Source of the DNA: a virus
Strand: one strand, 5' to 3'
DNA: 46,117 nucleotides
IMG/VR virus record: IMGVR_UViG_3300047318_000145
Coordinates: 1 to 46,117 of that record
The notes under the pieces were generated by a model. It had not been told where the DNA came from. It worked only from the letters and a program-made list of their open reading frames with translations, and did no database searches. The position numbers and the translations under genes are program-made. Positions 4,901 through 29,871 of this stretch are shown piece by piece (within the stretch, counting starts at the first letter, position 1; every line of letters starts with the position of its first letter).

Positions 4901-6132
4901 TAGTCTTTCTGCGCGATGATCATATCCAGATACTGGACGTTCATCGTGATTGGATGGTTATGGCCACCGCCAGCGCCGTTTGTCGTGGCGCCAGACATGC
5001 TGTTGCCGCCTGAGAACGAGTTGGTGTAGGTGGTGCCGCTGCCTGCATAGGCGACCGCGAAGCTGCCGAAGTTGTTGGAGAGGACAGTGCTCCAGCCACC
5101 GGGCGAGATGGGCGCGTAGTAGCCCGAGGTGCCCGCAGGGTAGACCGTGACGGTGCCTGAGACCGAGACGTTGAGGTTCGGGACTTCGCCCGAGCCCAGC
5201 ACGTGGGTGCCAACGGTAGTCATTGCGTTGAACGTCGAGAAAGGAACGCCGCCGCCAGTAGTCACGGTGCCGGACACCACACGCAAGAGCTTGTCGTTGT
5301 GGTCGGTGCGCTTCGTCCAGCCGGTCGGAGCCGTGGTCTGGTGAAAGAGCATCACAGTGCCAGATGGGAAGAACTTGGCGTTGATCGCCGCGTCCTGCGC
5401 ATCCACGTAGGTCTTGTCAGCCTTGAGGCCGATCTGGGTGGCCGTCGTCGTCGCGAAGTTGGGGTCATCACCCAGCGCAGTCGCAAGCTCATTGAGCGTG
5501 TCGAGCGTGGAGGGTGCAGAGTTGACTATGCCTGCGACCTTGGTGTCCACATAGGCTACGAGAGCGGCGTCCTGCGGATGCACGTGGTCCTCGTGGGCCC
5601 ATTTGTCGCTGGTGCCTACAGCAGCCGTGCCATCCATGAGAGGCGTCGCCGTGCCAGCCTTGGCCTGCACAGCATTGGCAGCATTGGCGGCCGAGGTCGC
5701 TGCGGCGGCCGATGAGGCGCTCGCGTTGGCTGCGTCAGCGTCAGCCGTGAGCTTGTCCGCTCTTACCTGGTCCGCGAGGTCATTCAACTCCGCGAGGACG
5801 GCACTCTCTTCCGACAGGAAGTCGTAGAGGTTGCCCTCAGGATAGAACGAGGTCGGGGCCGGGCGCGGGCGGTTGTCAGGGACGTTGTCGTTGTTCGTTA
5901 CATCTTCGGCACCCACCAGTCCGCCGTCAGTGAAGAACGAGCCGGGAGTGGTGGAGCTTAGGCCGGGCGCAGTCTCATTGGGGACCACGGTGCCTTCGCC
6001 CACAGTGCCGCCATCAGCGTAGAAGGAGCTAGGGACGGTCGAGGTCGCGGGCGCGTGGTCATTGGAGACCACAACGCCTTCGTCAACCTGCTCCCCGTCC
6101 ACGTAGAAAGAGGACGAGGTCGGGCTTACCAT
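4900..6132 (-). CDS. Tail fibre protein with collar-type domain
   Basis: 410 residues. The N-terminus has four SFY-type repeats (SSSFYVDGEQV, SSFYADGGTVG, GSFFTDGGLVG, TSFYPEGNLYDF) within residues 6-105. Next comes an Ala-rich helical shaft (about 105-165), a repeated VDTKV/YVDAQD segment, and from about 254 a phage tail-collar domain with SGTVMLFHQTTAPTGW. The last part is Gly/Ser/Thr-rich fibre sequence with GGGHNHPI. It is likely a receptor-binding or distal fibre protein. It overlaps the adaptor gene by seven bases. Confidence 0.85.
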   Translation of the reverse strand: MVSPTSSSFYVDGEQVDEGVVVSNDHAPATSTVPSSFYADGGTVGEGTVVPNETAPGLSSTTPGSFFTDGGLVGAEDVTNNDNVPDNRPRPAPTSFYPEGNLYDFLSEESAVLAELNDLADQVRADKLTADADAANASASSAAAATSAANAANAVQAKAGTATPLMDGTAAVGTSDKWAHEDHVHPQDAALVAYVDTKVAGIVNSAPSTLDTLNELATALGDDPNFATTTATQIGLKADKTYVDAQDAAINAKFFPSGTVMLFHQTTAPTGWTKRTDHNDKLLRVVSGTVTTGGGVPFSTFNAMTTVGTHVLGSGEVPNLNVSVSGTVTVYPAGTSGYYAPISPGGWSTVLSNNFGSFAVAYAGSGTTYTNSFSGGNSMSGATTNGAGGGHNHPITMNVQYLDMIIAQKD

Positions 6133-21994: not shown

Positions 21995-22020
21995 TATTGG
22001 GAGCATCTAGGCTCTCCATT

Positions 22021-22055
22021 CTATACCCCCTGATGCTCACCTGATAAGTCATTGA
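22021..22055 (-). promoter_or_regulatory. Proposed phage RNA polymerase promoter, late operon
   Basis: Read on the minus strand, this 35-mer shares a motif with 27143-27177 and 29792-29826 at identical spacing: TCAA, A at +7, TTA at +9, C at +13, then AGC.TCAGGGGGT.TAG at the 3' end. Of 35 columns, 24 are identical in all three. It points at the virion operon about 110 bases before its first start codon. It is inferred to be a T7-like single-subunit RNAP promoter, initiating probably at the G run. Confidence 0.7.
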
Positions 22056-22120
22056 TATCATTCAATAAGAGCTTGTAGAGAGCCTCCTAGAGGTACCTAG
22101 GTATAGCGAGGCTCGATCCT

Positions 22121-22827: not shown

Positions 22828-22844
22828 GGCGCAGATGTTGCGCC
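22828..22844 (+). ncRNA. RNA hairpin upstream of first early gene (diverged third copy)
   Basis: GGCGCA and TGCGCC form a perfect 6-bp stem with a five-base loop, 23 bases before the ATG at 22868. The context (CC....GGCGC / GCGCC..GG, then an AAAGG ribosome site) parallels the two 37-nt hairpins at 24091 and 24693, but the GNRA cap is absent. Confidence 0.5.
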
Positions 22845-22867: not shown

Positions 22868-23098
22868 ATGATCCGCATGCATGCATCTTCCAAGTCTATC
22901 GTTCGCAACGGCGCTATCGCCTACCTGCCCATGATCACCTTGCGCGCCGACAAAGGCCGCATGGTGGGCTGCAAGGTGCCTCAGGGTGCCGCGCAAGAAT
23001 TCCGCACGTTCACGACGTCGGAAGCTGCAAAGGAAGCCGCACGCGCCATTGCGCTTCGCTGTGCTGCCGACTTCCCCATGATCTTGATCGCCGCCTAA
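22868..23098 (+). CDS. First early gene, small hypothetical protein
   Basis: 76 residues beginning MIRMHASSKSIVRNGAIAYL. The ATG at 22868 is preceded by AAAGGG at good distance; a start at 22784 in the same frame lacks a ribosome site. The C-terminal half reads like a small alpha/beta domain, with FTTSEAAKEAARAIALRCAA. Not recognised. As the first plus-strand gene after the control region, it is likely an early host-takeover protein. Confidence 0.7.
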   Translation: MIRMHASSKSIVRNGAIAYLPMITLRADKGRMVGCKVPQGAAQEFRTFTTSEAAKEAARAIALRCAADFPMILIAA

Positions 23099-23127
23099 CG
23101 CCTTCGCTTTGTCCTAATAGCTTCCAA

Positions 23128-23143
23128 CTGTCAAAAGGCTTCC
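23128..23143 (+). promoter_or_regulatory. Shared 16-bp motif, copy 1
   Basis: CTGTCAAAAGGCTTCC lies five bases before the ATG at 23149. It is matched at 15 of 16 positions by 27104-27119 upstream of the RNA polymerase gene. A shorter CTGTCAACAG follows that gene at 29753. Possible operator or leader element; role unknown. Confidence 0.45.
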
Positions 23144-23148
23144 ACGCT

Positions 23149-23901
23149 ATGGCTATCAATCAAGTTAATGGTTTCATCTTCTATCGTGGCCCGTCGATGC
23201 TTGACGGTGCACCAATCATCGCAATCGCTACGGGGACGGCCAAGGGTTCGCGTAACTCTAAGACGGGCAGTGAAGTGCAAACTTGGATTTTGCGCGATGA
23301 CATGTCGCCCGTCGACGCTGTGAAGTCTGGCAATGATCGCAGCATTTGCGGAACGTGCATCCATCGTGGCCCGAACAATGATGGTTCGGAACGGTCGTGC
23401 TACGTCACCGTGTTTCAAGCTCCTCTTGTCGTGTGGAAGTCGGCGCAACGGGGCCTGTACCCTACGCTTAATGAGCACGCGGCGGGCCTCGCGTTGTCGG
23501 GCAAGATTGTGCGCCTTGGCTCCTATGGTGACCCTGCGGCCGTCCCCGCTCATGTGTGGCGTGCCCTTGTCGCGTTCACTGAGGGTCACACGGGCTACAC
23601 TCATCAATGGCGCACCAATGACGATTTGCGCGACCTTTGCATGGCGTCATGCGATACGGCTTTCGAGCAAGAGTTAGCTAAGGCGCAAGGGTGGCGTACG
23701 TTCCGTGTGATGCGCGCGGGTGATCGTATGCAGCCGCGTGAAATCGTTTGCCCGGCTTCTAAAGAGGCGGGCGCTAAGACAACGTGCGCCGCGTGCAAGG
23801 CATGTGGGGGCAATGGTGCAAAGGCTAAGGTCGACATTGCAATCGTTGCGCACGGCGCTGCAGGCAAGGTCAATGCATTCAACGCGAGGGCTGCAGCATG
23901 A
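23149..23901 (+). CDS. Cysteine-rich conserved phage/plasmid protein
   Basis: 250 residues from ATG 23149 (MAINQVNGFIFYRGPSMLDG). Cysteine motifs: CGTCIHR, SCYV and a C-terminal cluster VCPASKEAGAKTTCAACKAC. Between them are LGSYGDPAAVPAHVW, GYTHQW and MASCDTAFEQ. The arrangement recurs in proteins of unknown function from phages and plasmids of several bacterial phyla. The metal-binding cysteines and paired domains suggest a nucleic-acid-related role, perhaps in early replication or control. I see no catalytic motif I can name. The stop overlaps the next start. Confidence 0.75.
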   Translation: MAINQVNGFIFYRGPSMLDGAPIIAIATGTAKGSRNSKTGSEVQTWILRDDMSPVDAVKSGNDRSICGTCIHRGPNNDGSERSCYVTVFQAPLVVWKSAQRGLYPTLNEHAAGLALSGKIVRLGSYGDPAAVPAHVWRALVAFTEGHTGYTHQWRTNDDLRDLCMASCDTAFEQELAKAQGWRTFRVMRAGDRMQPREIVCPASKEAGAKTTCAACKACGGNGAKAKVDIAIVAHGAAGKVNAFNARAAA

Positions 23902-23993
23902 CCGGGGACACATGGCACGCGGCTATCCTGATCACCCTATGGCTCGCAGGGATGGCCTATGGCGCGGGTGTAATCGCGAGGTTGCTCGCATGA
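23898..23993 (+). CDS. Micro-membrane protein
   Basis: 31 residues, MTGDTWHAAI then a hydrophobic helix to the C-terminus (LITLWLAGMAYGAGVIARLL). Coupled at both ends by ATGA overlaps. One membrane span; function unknown. Confidence 0.6.
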   Translation: MTGDTWHAAILITLWLAGMAYGAGVIARLLA

Positions 23994-24073
23994 TCACAGA
24001 ACGCCTTTGCCACTTGGCGATGCTCCTAATCGTCGCGTTGTTGCTTCTACTGATTTCGCTATTCGTGCATTGA
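23990..24073 (+). CDS. Micro-membrane protein
   Basis: 27 residues: MITERLCHLAM followed by LLIVALLLLLISLFVH, a single very hydrophobic span. The ATG overlaps the upstream TGA. Such peptides in early phage operons may inhibit host membrane functions, but nothing specific is visible. Confidence 0.55.
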   Translation: MITERLCHLAMLLIVALLLLLISLFVH

Positions 24074-24090
24074 GCACGGCACATTCGAGA

Positions 24091-24127
24091 CCTTACGGCA
24101 CGCGGCGCAAGCCTACGTGCCTTGAGG
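24091..24127 (+). ncRNA. Conserved GNRA-capped RNA hairpin, copy 1
   Basis: The 37-nt element folds as CCTTA, C, GGCACG, C, GGC, loop GCAA, GCC, TA, CGTGCC, T, TGAGG. The outer 5-bp and middle 6-bp helices are separated by one C/T mismatch, then comes an asymmetric C/TA loop and a 3-bp stem capped by a GNRA tetraloop. Copy 2 at 24693 keeps every pair through compensatory or wobble changes. It lies 28 bases ahead of the next ATG. It may be an RNase III site, leader regulator or protein-binding element. Confidence 0.75.
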
Positions 24128-24155
24128 CATTACTAGGAACCGAAAGGGAATTCAC

Positions 24156-24479
24156 ATGGCCACATTCGAGCACAAGCTAGGTAAGACGCGCGCGGGCGAG
24201 GGGACGCGCATTTGGCTAGAGGGCAAGCGCCTAATCGATCATGGTTTCGTGCACGGGGCGCACGTCATGCGGACATGGTCCGAAGGTCGCTTGCATCTTG
24301 CCGTTACCAGTGAAGGCGAATGGCAAACGTTGCCCCGTAGCGAGCGCACAACGGTGGCAGGTAGCGTTGAGCGTCCCATCATTGACATAACCGGCATTGC
24401 CGTGCGCGAGGCGTTCCCGACCGGCAAGGTGACCGCTACTTGGTACACGGACGGCCGATGCATCATCAAGGGGGTTTAG
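24156..24479 (+). CDS. Hypothetical early protein, SymE/AbrB-like pattern
   Basis: 107 residues. The segment TRIWLEGKRLIDHGFVHGAH followed by RLHLAV resembles the strand-turn pattern of SymE-type toxins, which have an AbrB-like fold (IWL.G..L...GF..G). The rest has a second beta pattern ending VTATWYTDGRCIIKGV. A DNA- or RNA-binding role is therefore possible. It is preceded by hairpin copy 1 and GAAAGGG. Toxicity is not shown. Confidence 0.65.
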   Translation: MATFEHKLGKTRAGEGTRIWLEGKRLIDHGFVHGAHVMRTWSEGRLHLAVTSEGEWQTLPRSERTTVAGSVERPIIDITGIAVREAFPTGKVTATWYTDGRCIIKGV

Positions 24480-24482
24480 ATT

Positions 24483-24674
24483 ATGCCGAAATACGAATGC
24501 TTTGCCCCGGGGCACCCGTTCCCCGTCGAAACCGTGGAAGCCGAAACGGCATGGGACGCGCGCAAGGCCTACGCGGCCAAGCATGCCCTAGGCGGAACGC
24601 TAGGCGTCATTGCGCGCCGTGCGGACCTTGTCGACGAAACGTGGAAGCGTATCGCGGATAAGCATCGCGACTAA
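24483..24674 (+). CDS. Small hypothetical early protein
   Basis: 63 residues beginning MPKYECFAPGHPFPVETVEA. It reads as a strand followed by an amphipathic helix (AWDARKAYAAKHAL) and another helix, a compact alpha/beta domain. Three bases follow the upstream stop. Not recognised. Hairpin copy 2 lies directly downstream. Confidence 0.65.
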   Translation: MPKYECFAPGHPFPVETVEAETAWDARKAYAAKHALGGTLGVIARRADLVDETWKRIADKHRD

Positions 24675-24692
24675 TCACGCAATCAATCGAGA

Positions 24693-24729
24693 CCTTACGG
24701 CGCGCGGTGAAAGCCTACGCGCCTTAAGG
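24693..24729 (+). ncRNA. Conserved GNRA-capped RNA hairpin, copy 2
   Basis: Folds as CCTTA, C, GGCGCG, C, GGT, loop GAAA, GCC, TA, CGCGCC, T, TAAGG. Relative to copy 1, an A-U pair is replaced by G-C, a U-G by U-A and a C-G by U-G. The tetraloop changes GCAA to GAAA, both GNRA. Both copies follow TCGAGA, precede GGCATT, and sit 25-28 bases before a start codon. This is direct sequence evidence for selection on RNA structure. Confidence 0.75.
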
Positions 24730-24754
24730 CATTGGGGAACATGAAAGGACGTCT

Positions 24755-24946
24755 ATGACTACCGTTGCTGAATTCGCTTTAGAAGCTCAACGCGCGGGCT
24801 TTCGCATTGAGGAAGATGAGGAAGGCTTGCTCTGGATTATCACGCCAGCGAGGCCCCGTAGGCCCTCGCAGCGCCTAGGCTCTTATACTAACTCCGACCG
24901 GGCTTGGATGGCTGCAGCGTGCACGGCACGGCAATTCACGACATAG
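24755..24946 (+). CDS. Small hypothetical early protein
   Basis: 63 residues beginning MTTVAEFALEAQRAGFRIEE. An N-terminal helix is followed by a beta hairpin (DEEGLLWIITPARP) and a basic turn. ATG is preceded by GAAAGGA. Not recognised. Downstream, 24947-25109 has no gene that I can support. Confidence 0.6.
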   Translation: MTTVAEFALEAQRAGFRIEEDEEGLLWIITPARPRRPSQRLGSYTNSDRAWMAAACTARQFTT

Positions 24947-25109
24947 GGCATATGCCGCAGTAAAAATACGGAAATGTCTAATCGTCGGGGCGGGTGTGGC
25001 GAAAACGCACTTGTCCAAAGATTCGCCATAGTGCTTATCAGCAACACAATTCCGGCGCACACGCGGCACTCTGCCAGTCAAGGCCTCGGGGAAAGCATCA
25101 TTAAGAGCA

Positions 25110-25409
25110 ATGCGACCGATCATCACCATTGACGCAACCGGCCATCTCTTCTCGACCATTATTGAAAATGAAGAGACTCCGGTGATTGCAGTGGGCACTC
25201 GCTTTACGTTTGAGAAGCCTTACGAAACGCCTTGGGGCGAGGTGCCTGCGGGCATTGTCGCGACTGTCACAGAGAACAACGACGCAACGGGTGAGCTTGA
25301 CCTGGAGGTGGCCGAGAAGGTACCAGCGCTGTTCATGTGGCAGGGGATGTTAATCCTACTGCCCTTTATGTCCGAAGACTTAAGTGCTTGCCTAACCCTA
25401 CTCGCTTGA
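25110..25409 (+). CDS. Hypothetical protein before the regulator gene
   Basis: 99 residues beginning MRPIITIDATGHLFSTIIEN. Mostly beta, with GTRFTFEKPYETPWGEVPAG and ATVTENNDATGELDLEV, like a small barrel. It is followed by a hairpin terminator. Not recognised. Confidence 0.6.
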   Translation: MRPIITIDATGHLFSTIIENEETPVIAVGTRFTFEKPYETPWGEVPAGIVATVTENNDATGELDLEVAEKVPALFMWQGMLILLPFMSEDLSACLTLLA

Positions 25410-25419
25410 CAATCGACTT

Positions 25420-25447
25420 CCCCGGGAGCATTTAGTTCCCGGGGTTT
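25420..25447 (+). terminator. Intrinsic terminator ahead of the regulator gene
   Basis: CCCCGGGA (25420-25427) and TCCCGGGG (25437-25444) form an 8-bp perfect stem with a 9-base loop, followed by TTT. The short T-run makes termination possibly incomplete. It separates the early cassette from the regulator and integrase genes and could instead act as an attenuator for them. Confidence 0.7.
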
Positions 25448-25464
25448 CACCAGAGGAACATTAG

Positions 25465-25851
25465 ATGCCAGTCGCACACGCCTCTTTCAAGCCAACACTT
25501 TCAGAAGAAGAACGCTCAGCCGCCCGCGCGCTGCGGATGGCCCTTGAACCATTTTATGCCATGCGTCCCAACGTGCCCCTTAGCTACCTGCGCACGTTCC
25601 TGCTGATTGCCGAGGAAGAAGGTCTCGGCGTCAATGACTACGCTGGCATTGGGGACATTGCCCCCAGTGTCATGACGCGCAACATTCTCGACATCGGCAC
25701 GCTCAACCGACACAAGGAAGAAGGCTTGGCGCTGGTCGCCAATGACCGCGACCCGTACGACCTTCGCAAGCACAACGTTCGCGTGACGCCTAAGGGCCGT
25801 GCGCTCGTGCGTCAGTGGGTCACCGTGCTCCGCTCTTACTGTAAGGGATGA
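25465..25851 (+). CDS. MarR-like winged-helix regulator
   Basis: 128 residues. The C-terminal ~90 residues follow the MarR pattern: a helix FLLIAEEEGLGVNDYAGIGD, a recognition-helix-like APSVMTRNILDIGTL, a wing with GLALVANDRDPYDLRKHNVR and the final TPKGRALVRQWV. It lies six bases before the integrase gene, and no other repressor-like gene is present. It is thus the best candidate for a lysogeny regulator. Its target could be the repeats in the control region. Effector and site unknown. Confidence 0.75.
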   Translation: MPVAHASFKPTLSEEERSAARALRMALEPFYAMRPNVPLSYLRTFLLIAEEEGLGVNDYAGIGDIAPSVMTRNILDIGTLNRHKEEGLALVANDRDPYDLRKHNVRVTPKGRALVRQWVTVLRSYCKG

Positions 25852-25857
25852 TAGCCA

Positions 25858-26952
25858 ATGGCATTTGCAGAACGCGATAGCCGCACGAAGAAGCATACAG
25901 GCCGATGGGCTGTAGACTTTTGGTGGCGGCCCAAAGGTGAACCTGAGAAGCGTATGCGCCGTGCGTTCGACAGCAAGGCCGAGGCCGAGGCTGCAGAGAC
26001 TTACGCGCGCAGCACTGGCCAGTGGCCTAGCGCGACCGAGGAGGAGGCTGGAGGCCCGACCTTCCGTATGGCGGCCGAGGACATGCGCAAGCATCACGAC
26101 GTCTGGCAACGCGGCCGGGACACCTCGGGGCAAGCACGGCTCGACTGGATCATTGAGCAGATCGGTGACCTCCAGGTAAGGAAGGTTTCGACCGAGGACC
26201 TAGATGGCCTCGTGCGCGCCCTGCGTAAGCGCAAGGTGGTGTCACGTCGCAACGATACCGGCAAGCTCAAGGGCCGCACCATTAACGGCTATCTGACCAT
26301 GGCCAGCGCCGTGCTGACATGGGCGGCCGACCGGCCGAAGGTTTATGGTGCCTTCCGCGTCCCCAATCTGCCGTGGCAGGACACGATCAAGACCCGCATC
26401 CACTTCCTCACAATGGCTCAGCAGGAGGCTTTGGTCTCCTACTACCTTGAGAAGGGTTGGAAGGAAGAGGCCTTATTGGTGCGCGTCTTTGCGTCGTCGG
26501 GCATGCGTTGGAGTGAGGCGGCCGGGCTCGAACCCCACATGGTCACCGTGGGCAACCGGAACGGCTGGATCAAGCTCGATGCCACCAAGACAGATAATCC
26601 CCGGGACATCCCTATCTCCGTCGAAACCGCGCGCGACCTCAAGGCCTTGTTGGCCTCAGGTTATGCCCTGAATTACAGCCGCACGCGCACTAGGTTCGAC
26701 GTCGCAAGGGATTTGCTTGGGTTGCCGCCCGCTCTCACCATGTACGGCATGCGTCACGCGGCGGCGACCTATCTGACGAAGGGCGGCGTCCAACCGGCAA
26801 AAATCCAATCATTCATGGGACATAGCAGCTACGCGACCACGCAGCAGTATGTCCACGTCGAGCCGGATGACCTCGTCGAGGCCGTAAATATTCTCACCCC
26901 AACACATGGGGGCGAGGGCCAAAACGGCTTGACGGGTCCGAAAAATACGTAG
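25858..26952 (+). CDS. int: Tyrosine site-specific integrase
   Basis: 364 residues. Arm and core-binding regions occupy about 1-175. The catalytic domain carries R217 (SSGMRWSEAAGL), K244 (DATKTDNPRD), R299 in YGMRHAAATYL, H322 (FMGHSSYATT) and the nucleophile Y331 (QQYVHV). The usual His of the HxxR box is Tyr here (Y296), a change tolerated in some integrases. The gene is followed within 15 bases by a tRNA-Cys-like fragment, the likely attP. It makes this T7-supergroup phage potentially temperate. Confidence 0.92.
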   Translation: MAFAERDSRTKKHTGRWAVDFWWRPKGEPEKRMRRAFDSKAEAEAAETYARSTGQWPSATEEEAGGPTFRMAAEDMRKHHDVWQRGRDTSGQARLDWIIEQIGDLQVRKVSTEDLDGLVRALRKRKVVSRRNDTGKLKGRTINGYLTMASAVLTWAADRPKVYGAFRVPNLPWQDTIKTRIHFLTMAQQEALVSYYLEKGWKEEALLVRVFASSGMRWSEAAGLEPHMVTVGNRNGWIKLDATKTDNPRDIPISVETARDLKALLASGYALNYSRTRTRFDVARDLLGLPPALTMYGMRHAAATYLTKGGVQPAKIQSFMGHSSYATTQQYVHVEPDDLVEAVNILTPTHGGEGQNGLTGPKNT

Positions 26953-27083: not shown

Positions 27084-27103
27084 GCACCCCTAATTGGTGC
27101 GTG

Positions 27104-27119
27104 CTGTCAAAAGACTTCC
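27104..27119 (+). promoter_or_regulatory. Shared 16-bp motif, copy 2
   Basis: CTGTCAAAAGACTTCC differs from 23128-23143 at one position. It lies 84 bases before the RNA polymerase start and 23 bases before the proposed promoter at 27143. Possible regulator site for both transcription units. Confidence 0.45.
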
Positions 27120-27142: not shown

Positions 27143-27177
27143 TCAATGAGTTAGCCGCTAAGCCTCAGGGGGTTTAG
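27143..27177 (+). promoter_or_regulatory. Proposed phage RNA polymerase promoter upstream of its own gene
   Basis: Copy of the 35-bp motif (TCAATGAG...TTAGC...AGCCTCAGGGGGTTTAG), 25 bases before the polymerase ATG. A T7-type promoter here would give positive autoregulation once some enzyme has been made from a host promoter. See 22021-22055 for column conservation. Confidence 0.65.
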
Positions 27178-27202
27178 ACAAGACAAAAGGAACTGTTCCC
27201 CG

Positions 27203-29737
27203 ATGAACGCAATTCCGTCCACCATTGAATTCGATCTAGCCGTTAAAAAGATCAACAACCAAGACACTAGAGCTAGGACCAACGAAGGCTTCAGCAGCAC
27301 CCTAGGTGCACGTAAGCTCACCGCACGCAGCCTTAGCGCCGTGACCGAGGGCGTGGTGTCTGCTTTGAATAACAGCAACAAGCTCCGCACCGACAGCATG
27401 GAGTTCAAGCTGCAGCGTGTCCTTAGGGGACTGGATGTCGAGGTGATCGCCTTGGCGTGCCTGATGCCTGCGCTCAACAGCGTGGCCCTTGAGCACACCC
27501 ACCGGGACGCTGCACTGGCCATTGGGGGTTCCTTGTGGACCGAAGCCTACATGAGGAAACTGCTGGTCACCGACAAGAAGGCCGCAGGGTCCCTTACGAA
27601 GGCCGCTGGTGAGCGTTTCGCCAGCGTGAAGCTTCGGCAGGCCAAGGTGATTAAGGACGCTGAGAAGCGCCTAGGCTTCACCATGGAGGAATGGACGCGC
27701 CCTATGCGACTGCATGCTGGCCAGTGGGGCATCAACATTCTGCTGCAGGCTCTCCCGCACGTGTTCGAGCTTCGCGAGATTCCGAACGATGCCGAGAAGG
27801 CGTGGAGCGTCACCGACGAAGCGGCGACCATGATGGACGACGTCGTCAATGATGCCGTGCTCAAGTCTCCTGTCTATCAGCCGCGCACTGTGAAGCCGAA
27901 CGATTGGACAGGCTTCTATTCGAAGATTGCCGAAGACAGGCGCTTCGCGAGCGTTGCGGTCCCCTTGGTCCGTACGCTGCACAAAGAGACCGTCGCTGCG
28001 ATCAAGCACGCCATTAAGACGGGCCAGATGGATGGCGTCATGCGTGCAGTCAACAACCTGCAGAGCGTGCCTTACAAGATCAACGGTTGGCTGTTGGGCA
28101 TCCTGCAGGAATGCGACCACCTCGGCATCGAGGTTAAGGGCGTGCCCCCGCAGAAGCCTAAGAAGGTCACCCCGCGCTCGTCTGACGAAGTGTGGGCCGC
28201 AATGACCAAGGCAGAGCAGGGCCGCCGTGCGGCTCAGATCAAGATTGAGAAGAAGCGTAACCGCATCGACAAGGCGGCTCGCTTCAAGTTCAACATCGAC
28301 CTGAGCGTTGCGCGTCGCATGCAGATCGTTGACCAGTTCTTTACCCCGATGAACCTCGACTGGCGCGGTCGCGTTTATTACCTCACGCAATTCAACTTCC
28401 AACGTGAGGACTATGTGCGCGGCATGTTCCTGTTCGCCAACGGCAAGCCTGTGGGTGAGCGGGGCATCTATCACCTGAAGCTTCAAGTCGCCAATACCTG
28501 GAGCGGTGAGCAGAAGCTCGACAAGCAACCGATGCCCGTGCGCGTGAAGTGGTGCGACGACAACATCGACCTGTTGCGGGACTTCGTTGCGCGTCCGCTC
28601 CACAACACCGACTGGACGAAGGCCGACAAGCCCTTCGCCTTCCTCGCTGCCGCACGGGAGCTTGTGAACGCATGGGACAATCCGTCGTACGTCTGCCACC
28701 TCCCGGTAGCCTTCGACGGTAGCTGTAATGGCTTGCAGCACCTTTGCGCCATGACCCGCGCGTCCGAGGGCAAGTTCGTCAACCTGACGGACAACAAGAC
28801 GCCTGAGGATATCTATCAGTTGGTCGCTGACGCGGCGCTCAAGAGCATCGAGGCCGACAAACACAGCGACACCCTGTATTACGCTCAGGGTCCCGCTGAC
28901 GCTCCCCGCAAGGCTAACGCTACGCTGGGTGACCTCGCGCAACTCGCCATCGAGTATGGTGTGAACCGCAAGCTCGTGAAGCGTAACGTGATGACCTTCG
29001 CCTATTCGAGTAAGGAAAATGGGATGAAGGATCAACACGTCGAGGACACCATCGACGCTGAGAGCCTCAAGGGCAACTATCCGTTCGGCACCACCTTTGC
29101 CGAACAGCAGTTGGCCGCGTCGTATCTCGCCAAGCGTACGATGGCTGCAATCAAGAGCGTTGTCACCAAGCCTGCAGAAGCCATGGCGTTCATGCAGAAG
29201 CTGGCTCAAGTGCTCGCCCACGAAGGCAAGGCGCTTACTTGGAAGACCCCCATGGGTCTCCCTTGGATCAACCGCTACCATGCGTCCAACGTGCGGGTCA
29301 TCAGGCTCTCTTGCTACAGCAAAGGCGTTCGTATCCCCGTCGACACCATGCTCTCAGACGGCTTCGATACGGCTATCGCGAAGCGTGAGGTCTCCAATGG
29401 CGTGGCCCCAAACTTCGTTCACGCCCTCGACGGTTGTCATTTGCAGGCCTCTGTGAATGCTGCTGTCGACCGTGGCATCGTCGACTTCGCTACCGTCCAC
29501 GACAGCTACGGTTGCCTCCCGGCCGACGCTGACCTGTTCAATGAGGTGATCCGAGAGGAGTTCCTTCGCATCTACGTCGAGCGTGACGTGCTGCAGGAGC
29601 TTCTGGACGACGCCATCAGCCAACTCTCGGAAGCTGGCCGCGCCAAACTGGACAAAGAGCTTGAGAAGGCTCCCAAGCCAGTCCCGGGCGACCTGCCTTT
29701 GGAACAGATCATCAGCGCCGTCTACGCCTTCGCGTGA
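27203..29737 (+). CDS. Single-subunit DNA-dependent RNA polymerase, T7-like
   Basis: 844 residues. Motif A: FDGSCNGLQH with D505. Motif B: KLVKRNVMTFAYSSKE with K593 and Y601. Motif C: VHDSYG with D767. NLDWRGRVYYL (385-394) and APNFVHALDGCHL are also signature blocks of T7-type polymerases. Length is close to T7 RNAP (883). It would transcribe middle and late genes from its own promoters. It is flanked by two copies of the proposed promoter and followed by a hairpin. Confidence 0.96.
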   Translation: MNAIPSTIEFDLAVKKINNQDTRARTNEGFSSTLGARKLTARSLSAVTEGVVSALNNSNKLRTDSMEFKLQRVLRGLDVEVIALACLMPALNSVALEHTHRDAALAIGGSLWTEAYMRKLLVTDKKAAGSLTKAAGERFASVKLRQAKVIKDAEKRLGFTMEEWTRPMRLHAGQWGINILLQALPHVFELREIPNDAEKAWSVTDEAATMMDDVVNDAVLKSPVYQPRTVKPNDWTGFYSKIAEDRRFASVAVPLVRTLHKETVAAIKHAIKTGQMDGVMRAVNNLQSVPYKINGWLLGILQECDHLGIEVKGVPPQKPKKVTPRSSDEVWAAMTKAEQGRRAAQIKIEKKRNRIDKAARFKFNIDLSVARRMQIVDQFFTPMNLDWRGRVYYLTQFNFQREDYVRGMFLFANGKPVGERGIYHLKLQVANTWSGEQKLDKQPMPVRVKWCDDNIDLLRDFVARPLHNTDWTKADKPFAFLAAARELVNAWDNPSYVCHLPVAFDGSCNGLQHLCAMTRASEGKFVNLTDNKTPEDIYQLVADAALKSIEADKHSDTLYYAQGPADAPRKANATLGDLAQLAIEYGVNRKLVKRNVMTFAYSSKENGMKDQHVEDTIDAESLKGNYPFGTTFAEQQLAASYLAKRTMAAIKSVVTKPAEAMAFMQKLAQVLAHEGKALTWKTPMGLPWINRYHASNVRVIRLSCYSKGVRIPVDTMLSDGFDTAIAKREVSNGVAPNFVHALDGCHLQASVNAAVDRGIVDFATVHDSYGCLPADADLFNEVIREEFLRIYVERDVLQELLDDAISQLSEAGRAKLDKELEKAPKPVPGDLPLEQIISAVYAFA

Positions 29738-29744
29738 CCAGATA

Positions 29745-29775
29745 GCTTCCCCCTGTCAACAGACTGCGGGGAAGC
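29745..29775 (+). terminator. Hairpin after the RNA polymerase gene
   Basis: GCTTCCCC and GGGGAAGC form a perfect 8-bp stem around a 15-base loop that can itself pair (CTGT/ACAG). No T-run follows, so it may be a processing site or a weak terminator and not a classical intrinsic one. It starts seven bases after the stop codon. Confidence 0.5.
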
Positions 29776-29791
29776 ACTATATTCCACAAAA

Positions 29792-29826
29792 TCAACTACT
29801 TAGCCCCCGAGCCTCAGGGGGTTTAG
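29792..29826 (+). promoter_or_regulatory. Proposed phage RNA polymerase promoter for the replication genes
   Basis: Copy of the 35-bp motif (TCAACTAC...TTAGC...AGCCTCAGGGGGTTTAG). It shares 28 of 35 bases with the copy before the polymerase gene and 24 conserved columns with the late copy on the other strand. It heads the long unidirectional run of replication genes from 29872. Confidence 0.68.
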
Positions 29827-29871
29827 CCAAGACGCCATCCCGGCAAGGCCCAGTCACCCCGGAGATTTCCC

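Follow-up and report, generated by a model that had tools for sequence, protein, structure and literature searches.

The window, by which we mean the whole stretch of DNA analysed, comprises positions 1-46,117 of IMGVR_UViG_3300047318_000145, a 46-kb virus record. Given genes for a single-subunit RNA polymerase (27203-29737, Pfam PF00940), an integrase (25858-26952) and a regulator (25465-25851, phrog_9665), we assigned it to a temperate T7-like phage, whose polymerase is only about 30% identical to those of the nearest named phages. The window also carries two copies of a 37-nt hairpin, hereafter H1; in many relatives a second hairpin, H2, lies between H1 and the Shine-Dalgarno (SD) sequence. 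The features around the two copies are as follows.

24071-24073 (+): TGA stop of a small upstream ORF, 17 nt before H1 copy 1 (sequence; gap analysis)
24083-24090 (+): conserved 5' flank of copy 1, ATTCGAGA, with the consensus ACATCGR in relatives (repeat extent; per-position base counts)
24091-24127 (+): H1 copy 1 (fold; model R1, 69.1 bits; model R2, 61.4 bits, E = 3.5e-12)
24142-24148 (+): SD-like GAAAGGG of the gene behind copy 1 (sequence)
24156-24479 (+): 107-aa ORF behind copy 1 (ORF list; family searches)
24483-24674 (+): 63-aa ORF, the second of two genes enclosed by the hairpins, its stop 18 nt before copy 2
24685-24692 (+): conserved 5' flank of copy 2, AATCGAGA (repeat extent)
24693-24729 (+): H1 copy 2 (fold; model R1, 68.0 bits; model R2, 64.8 bits, E = 5.9e-13)
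24743-24749 (+): SD-like GAAAGGA of the gene behind copy 2 (sequence)
24755-24946 (+): 63-aa ORF behind copy 2, with a relative in the Bradyrhizobium locus L098

A preliminary description, made from the sequence alone, had placed twin hairpins of identical structure at exactly these positions, and both sequence and fold bore it out. Each copy consists of 5 bp, a C/U mismatch, 6 bp, a C/UA internal loop, 3 bp and a GNRA cap. With flanks, the folding energies were -22.1 kcal/mol for copy 1 and -23.7 kcal/mol for copy 2 (z-scores of -3.9 and -3.7, respectively), and none of 200 shuffles folded equally well. The differences between the copies had been described as structure-preserving, and all five bases indeed keep the pairing or the loop class: an A-U to G-C exchange (two bases), C-G to U-G, U-G to U-A, and GCAA to GAAA in the cap. 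The repeat reaches 50 nt in total (24082-24131 against 24684-24733, 88% identity). The distance to the next start, said to be 25-28 nt, was measured as 28 nt to the ATG at 24156 and 25 nt to the ATG at 24755, and the genes behind the copies do look small and early; the 107-aa ORF has no match in Pfam, PHROGs or NCBIfam. No second stem was found behind copy 1. An unfiltered scan of the window yielded no third copy of H1 (third-best match, E = 1.3), and a degenerate hairpin pattern had 0 matches in the shuffled window.

Beyond the window, degenerate-pattern and covariance searches detected H1 in some 20 viral contigs and in Bradyrhizobium genomes, often with 2-5 copies per element. The first degenerate pattern matched eight stretches in the viral contigs, and looser patterns added further matches from unrelated phages as well as one in a Bradyrhizobium cenepequi genome. 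Because several of the patterns fixed parts of H1, the first 22 sequences owe some of their conservation at these sites to selection, while the pairs left free in the patterns (N against N) were not touched by this selection. In the alignment of these 22 sequences, 11 of 14 pairs changed on both sides. The covariance model R1, built from the same 22 sequences, found copies fixed by no pattern, up to five per viral contig record, and matched at least 18 of 266 Bradyrhizobium genomes. The preliminary description had proposed a conserved functional RNA, and the search with R1 upheld this proposal by returning dozens more homologues with further covariation. In the 52-sequence alignment, both partners vary in 13 of 14 base pairs with pairing retained; double-changed cells numbered 142, compared with 45.5 in shuffles, and none of 500 shuffles reached the observed values. 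The inner helix of nine pairs is paired in 99.1% of cells; fitting this alignment to the structure inflates the pairing somewhat, and slid and shuffled controls lie far below it. G-U pairs are tolerated in the family. Of the 52 sequences, 42 have a GNRA cap, 2 a UNCG cap and 8 another loop; 45 have the C/UA internal loop, and most have two pyrimidines at the mismatch. Given the covariation and G-U pairs, together with the orientation and codon-anchored spacing described below, it appears close to certain from sequence comparison that H1 is a selected cis-acting RNA.

Rfam 15 gave no match in the window at the gathering threshold. At E ≤ 5 in window positions 23000-25500 it gave none at H1, the sole match being at 25178, and at E ≤ 1 none at the elements in loci L032, L038, L070, L073, L082, L106 and L107. 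A DNA similarity search of the named phage collection found no homologue, and we found no published report of such an element in the open-licence literature. By these comparisons, the window hairpins belong to a so far undescribed family of putative cis-acting intercistronic RNAs in Bradyrhizobium phages and prophages.

In total, at least 20 of the 266 Bradyrhizobium genomes had a match. Among other genomes of the order, at least 1 of 396 had one, a weak match (L111) without the stop spacing that is probably due to chance; other genomes of the phylum had none (0 of 397) among the candidates scored. These genome counts are lower bounds, since the best 15-23 candidates per genome were scored. 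The family-level sample contributed one genome outside Bradyrhizobium (G483, locus L110) with a convincing copy. A Bradyrhizobium match in the plasmid collection was at fragment level (12.8 bits with R2) and was not counted. Some of the host loci are prophage-like, encoding a P22-type portal (L090), a terminase large subunit (L091), or a recombinase or integrase (L093 and L102). Furthermore, in the Bradyrhizobium locus L098 five early window genes have relatives whose order is conserved, with the hairpin before the first, and a Bradyrhizobium-like host is therefore likely for the window phage. The window ORF at 22868 has no H1 upstream, its homologues in L007, L008 and L098 having one; a different stem, GGCGCA-GATGT-TGCGCC, occupies 22828-22844 ahead of this ORF.

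The genes behind the element include an ArdC anti-restriction protein (L107, and L027 by resemblance) and a DUF932 protein (L106); the others mostly encode small proteins without family matches. As for a shared phage gene that might be a partner of the element, no gene family occurred in more than 5 of 29 carrier loci. Arrays of 3-5 copies before consecutive small genes were seen in single Bradyrhizobium genomes (L114 634-2435, L115 5-1544 and L096 9036-11062), and some of their products have signal-peptide-like N-termini. The 30-kb phage contig L107 also has twelve tRNA matches within 2.5 kb (4-2497, - strand).

The anatomy of the element was derived from 48 copies lined up with their neighbouring genes. 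It lies in sense orientation between co-directional genes, and the full unit reads: stop of gene N, a spacer of about 15 nt with ACAUCGR at its end, H1, a CRUYAG linker, often H2, the SD sequence and the AUG of gene N+1. The gap from the upstream stop to H1 was 13-19 nt in 33 of 44 copies, with a mode of 15; were the stops spread evenly over the 64 positions examined, about 11% would fall in that range. This spacer is C-rich and G-poor, and its last seven nucleotides tend to ACATCGR. The best copies of L113, L114, L115 and L110, which lie outside model R2, had gaps of 15, 15, 14, 14, 13 and 14 nt and are an independent confirmation of the stop-spacing rule. The spacing was off in some weaker copies of these four loci and in the chromosomal-looking loci L097, L101 and L109. 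The latter three have a hairpin subtype of their own, CCCCGG-C-GGC-GCAA-GCC-UA-CCGGGG, with looser stop spacing, and are surrounded by genes such as DUF805, Excalibur, AraC and TctC.

On the downstream side, the median distance between the first base of H1 and the start codon is about 79 nt. Many relatives have H2, with a stem of 5-9 bp and loops such as UUGCCG, AUGGC and CGUC; in about half of the copies this stem outperforms 95% of shuffles. H2 is absent from the window copies and their nearest relatives, and because the second stem is missing, the distance from the first base of H1 to the start codon shrinks to 65 and 62 nt in the window. A purine-rich SD sequence, variable among relatives, follows H2 and precedes the start codon, and SD and AUG are about half unpaired in the predicted leaders (mean 0.55). 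H2 loops often contain AUG or UUG after a purine-rich arm (L106 5621-7357, - strand; L107 8734-10439, + strand; L027 3042, - strand); in several relatives this triplet shares the reading frame of the gene that starts about 25-33 nt further on, and elsewhere it does not. Several genes of one operon can each have a copy of their own, as in L107 (4 copies in 1.7 kb) and L106 (5 copies).

A hairpin directly after a stop codon could be read as an intrinsic terminator or as a signal for stop-codon readthrough. We regard this as highly improbable: no U-run is present, CATTACTAGGAACC and CATTGGGGAACA follow the window hairpins, and an SD sequence and an ORF come directly downstream. The preliminary description had likewise spoken against a terminator, in line with these features and with the position between genes. 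A readthrough or selenocysteine signal was rejected since all three stops are used (TAA 12, TAG 13, TGA 11) and the frames are open at chance level (13, 13 and 14 of 36). An integron attC site was also rejected, the RYYYAAC end being absent by eye.

The toeprint of a ribosome lies 15-16 nt from the P-site, which puts the edge of the ribosome about 9-10 nt past the stop. The stop-H1 distance matches the position expected for the downstream edge of a ribosome at termination, because the conserved ACATCGR flank starts about where the ribosome ends. We tentatively favour, as a reading that falls somewhat short of probable, that the element serves as an intercistronic leader or punctuation mark insulating the next ribosome-binding site. 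H1 would lie just outside the footprint of the ribosome terminating on gene N and, being outside it, could stay folded during upstream translation of the polycistronic early mRNA. There it would separate the ribosome-binding site of gene N+1 from the upstream cistron and shield the message, with protection or processing of the mRNA as part of its role, and each exchangeable small gene would thereby obtain its own translation unit. Against insulation stand the window copies without H2, the half-open SD, which is no clear signature, and the few chromosomal-looking copies off the stop spacing. Sequestration of the SD by the pyrimidine-rich 5' arm of H1 was rejected, as such complementarity is trivial with purine-rich SDs and the predicted SD accessibility is intermediate.

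For insulation alone, the conserved C/UA loop, CRUYAG linker and ACAUCGR flank would not be needed; they suggest specific recognition. As the element is shared by otherwise unrelated phages within a single host genus, which have no phage gene in common near it, any protein reading it would probably be host-encoded. H1 might be a post-transcriptional operator, bound by an RNA-binding protein from the host or from elsewhere on the phage that switches a group of early genes on or off together. The retained C/UA loop and pyrimidine mismatch, the many copies before different genes of one genome and the single host genus all suit such an operator. We nevertheless hold it to be rather unlikely, for no gene near the element is common to the carrier loci, H1 ends at least 25-28 nt upstream of the AUG and leaves the SD uncovered, and its cap is exchangeable, unlike those of boxB or coat-protein hairpins.

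Multiple copies tied to non-structural gene starts in a single orientation are also a property of the SAS and ESAS elements of cluster K mycobacteriophages, the closest analogue of H1. These occur in many copies in the non-structural half of the phage genomes, just before starts and in one orientation, within larger-than-usual intergenic gaps, and their function is unknown (PMC3203893). SAS is a linear 13-bp sequence, GGGATAGGAGCCC, that contains the SD and lies 3-7 bp before the start codon, and ESAS adds 17-bp inverted repeats with a variable spacer (PMC3203893). H1 differs in its 37-nt bulged hairpin core, its strong covariation, its lack of a fixed SD sequence, its fixed distance to the upstream stop and its host. 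It is not a member of SAS/ESAS, as the 13-bp sequence is absent (GAAAGGG and GAAAGGA precede the window starts). We regard it as a gene-start-associated phage element whose core is a new structured RNA family.

In its full form the element has two stem-loops within about 70 nt, as has putRNA of phage HK022, a cis RNA of phage early regions that requires no phage protein (PMC9378689). The put type is defined by binding to the RNA polymerase beta' zinc-binding domain and suppression of termination. By analogy, nascent H1-H2 RNA might bind the host RNA polymerase and make it resist terminators and Rho in the early operon. Independence of phage proteins would fit the absence of a shared gene; the restriction to one host genus also speaks for this reading, as does the location of the window copies, both of which lie upstream of the gene for the phage's RNA polymerase and nowhere else. 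Yet put comes as two copies per genome near early promoters, whereas here there are up to five, each tied to a gene start; the two adjacent stem-loops are seen in many relatives but not in the window copies and several others; and the linker and helix layout is unlike that of put. On balance we consider such antitermination unlikely.

Similar doubt applies to a processing site, at which RNase III or RNase E would cut so that H1 becomes a 3' end hairpin and H2 the 5' end hairpin of the next mRNA. The position between genes of the early polycistronic region of a T7-like phage, the 14-bp stem with an internal loop and the conserved-sequence linker between H1 and H2 are compatible with it, and the RNase III sites of the T7 early region are likewise internal-loop hairpins between early genes. 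Those sites have longer stems and low sequence conservation, whereas H1 is conserved in sequence and spacing across unrelated phages. RNase III requires little conservation of sequence at its sites, a 14-bp stem interrupted twice is short, the linkers lack a cleavage consensus common to all of them and H2 is often absent, so that we regard processing by cleavage as an improbable main role.

The copies also leave a trace at the DNA level. At the L007 hairpin (position 5251), window positions 23907-24131 align with the left flank (92%) and positions 24684-25852 with the right side (81%); the sole overlap of these alignments is inside the 50-nt repeat (L007 5242-5291), and both genes between the window copies are gone. 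Because the flanks join inside the repeat, the copies can serve as crossover points, which suggests a way for early gene sets to be shuffled. H1 could be a DNA-level repeat that serves as a recombination cassette, a role proposed for the PeSLs of T4-type phages, or that acts as an operator for a DNA-binding protein, and L007, with the left flank of copy 1 and the right flank of copy 2, does attest recombination. We judge this very unlikely to be its role, since G-U pairs, GNRA and UNCG caps, a single orientation relative to the ORFs and the stop/start spacing indicate RNA, and copies within one genome diverge by compensatory changes instead of being kept identical. Recombination is more likely a consequence of the repeats. 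Like PeSLs, H1 is a repeated intergenic cassette among small early genes that is associated with gene exchange. PeSLs carry a promoter and a terminator-like stem-loop; for H1, by contrast, a U-run was not observed, and a promoter upstream of it would not fit into the 15-nt gap.

Returning to the intercistronic leader, a more specific version, conceivable but of limited likelihood, is a two-hairpin module at the leading edge of the terminating ribosome that would sense the state of the upstream cistron, be read by a host factor and license each early gene separately, providing a format for exchangeable early and anti-defence genes such as ArdC that unrelated phages of the host genus would have in common. 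Owing to the spacing rule at both ends, the function of the element is directly testable. With more than 50 strongly covarying members, the family is a previously undescribed addition to phage biology. Since every copy flags where a small early gene begins, searches with the model can locate early and anti-defence genes in the phages of Bradyrhizobium, which lives in soil and is a symbiont of crop legumes; most genes marked so far have no family match, and two are ArdC-like anti-restriction proteins.

Two further repeats were observed near the polymerase gene. The repeat CTGTCAAMAGRCT, with an upstream CCTAATAGCTTCC-like sequence, occurs at 23110-23140, 27086-27116 and 29735-29765 (+), that is, before the gene at 23152 and before and after the RNA polymerase gene. 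All three occurrences are exact, matches with up to two mismatches being not above chance, and the repeat is a candidate promoter of the phage polymerase. A terminator-like repeat with CCTCAGGGGGTTTAG is found at 27143-27184 and 29792-29833 (+), with an inverse at 22020-22067. It starts 57 nt after the start of two of the CTGTCAAMAGRCT copies, so that matching modules lie on either side of the polymerase gene.
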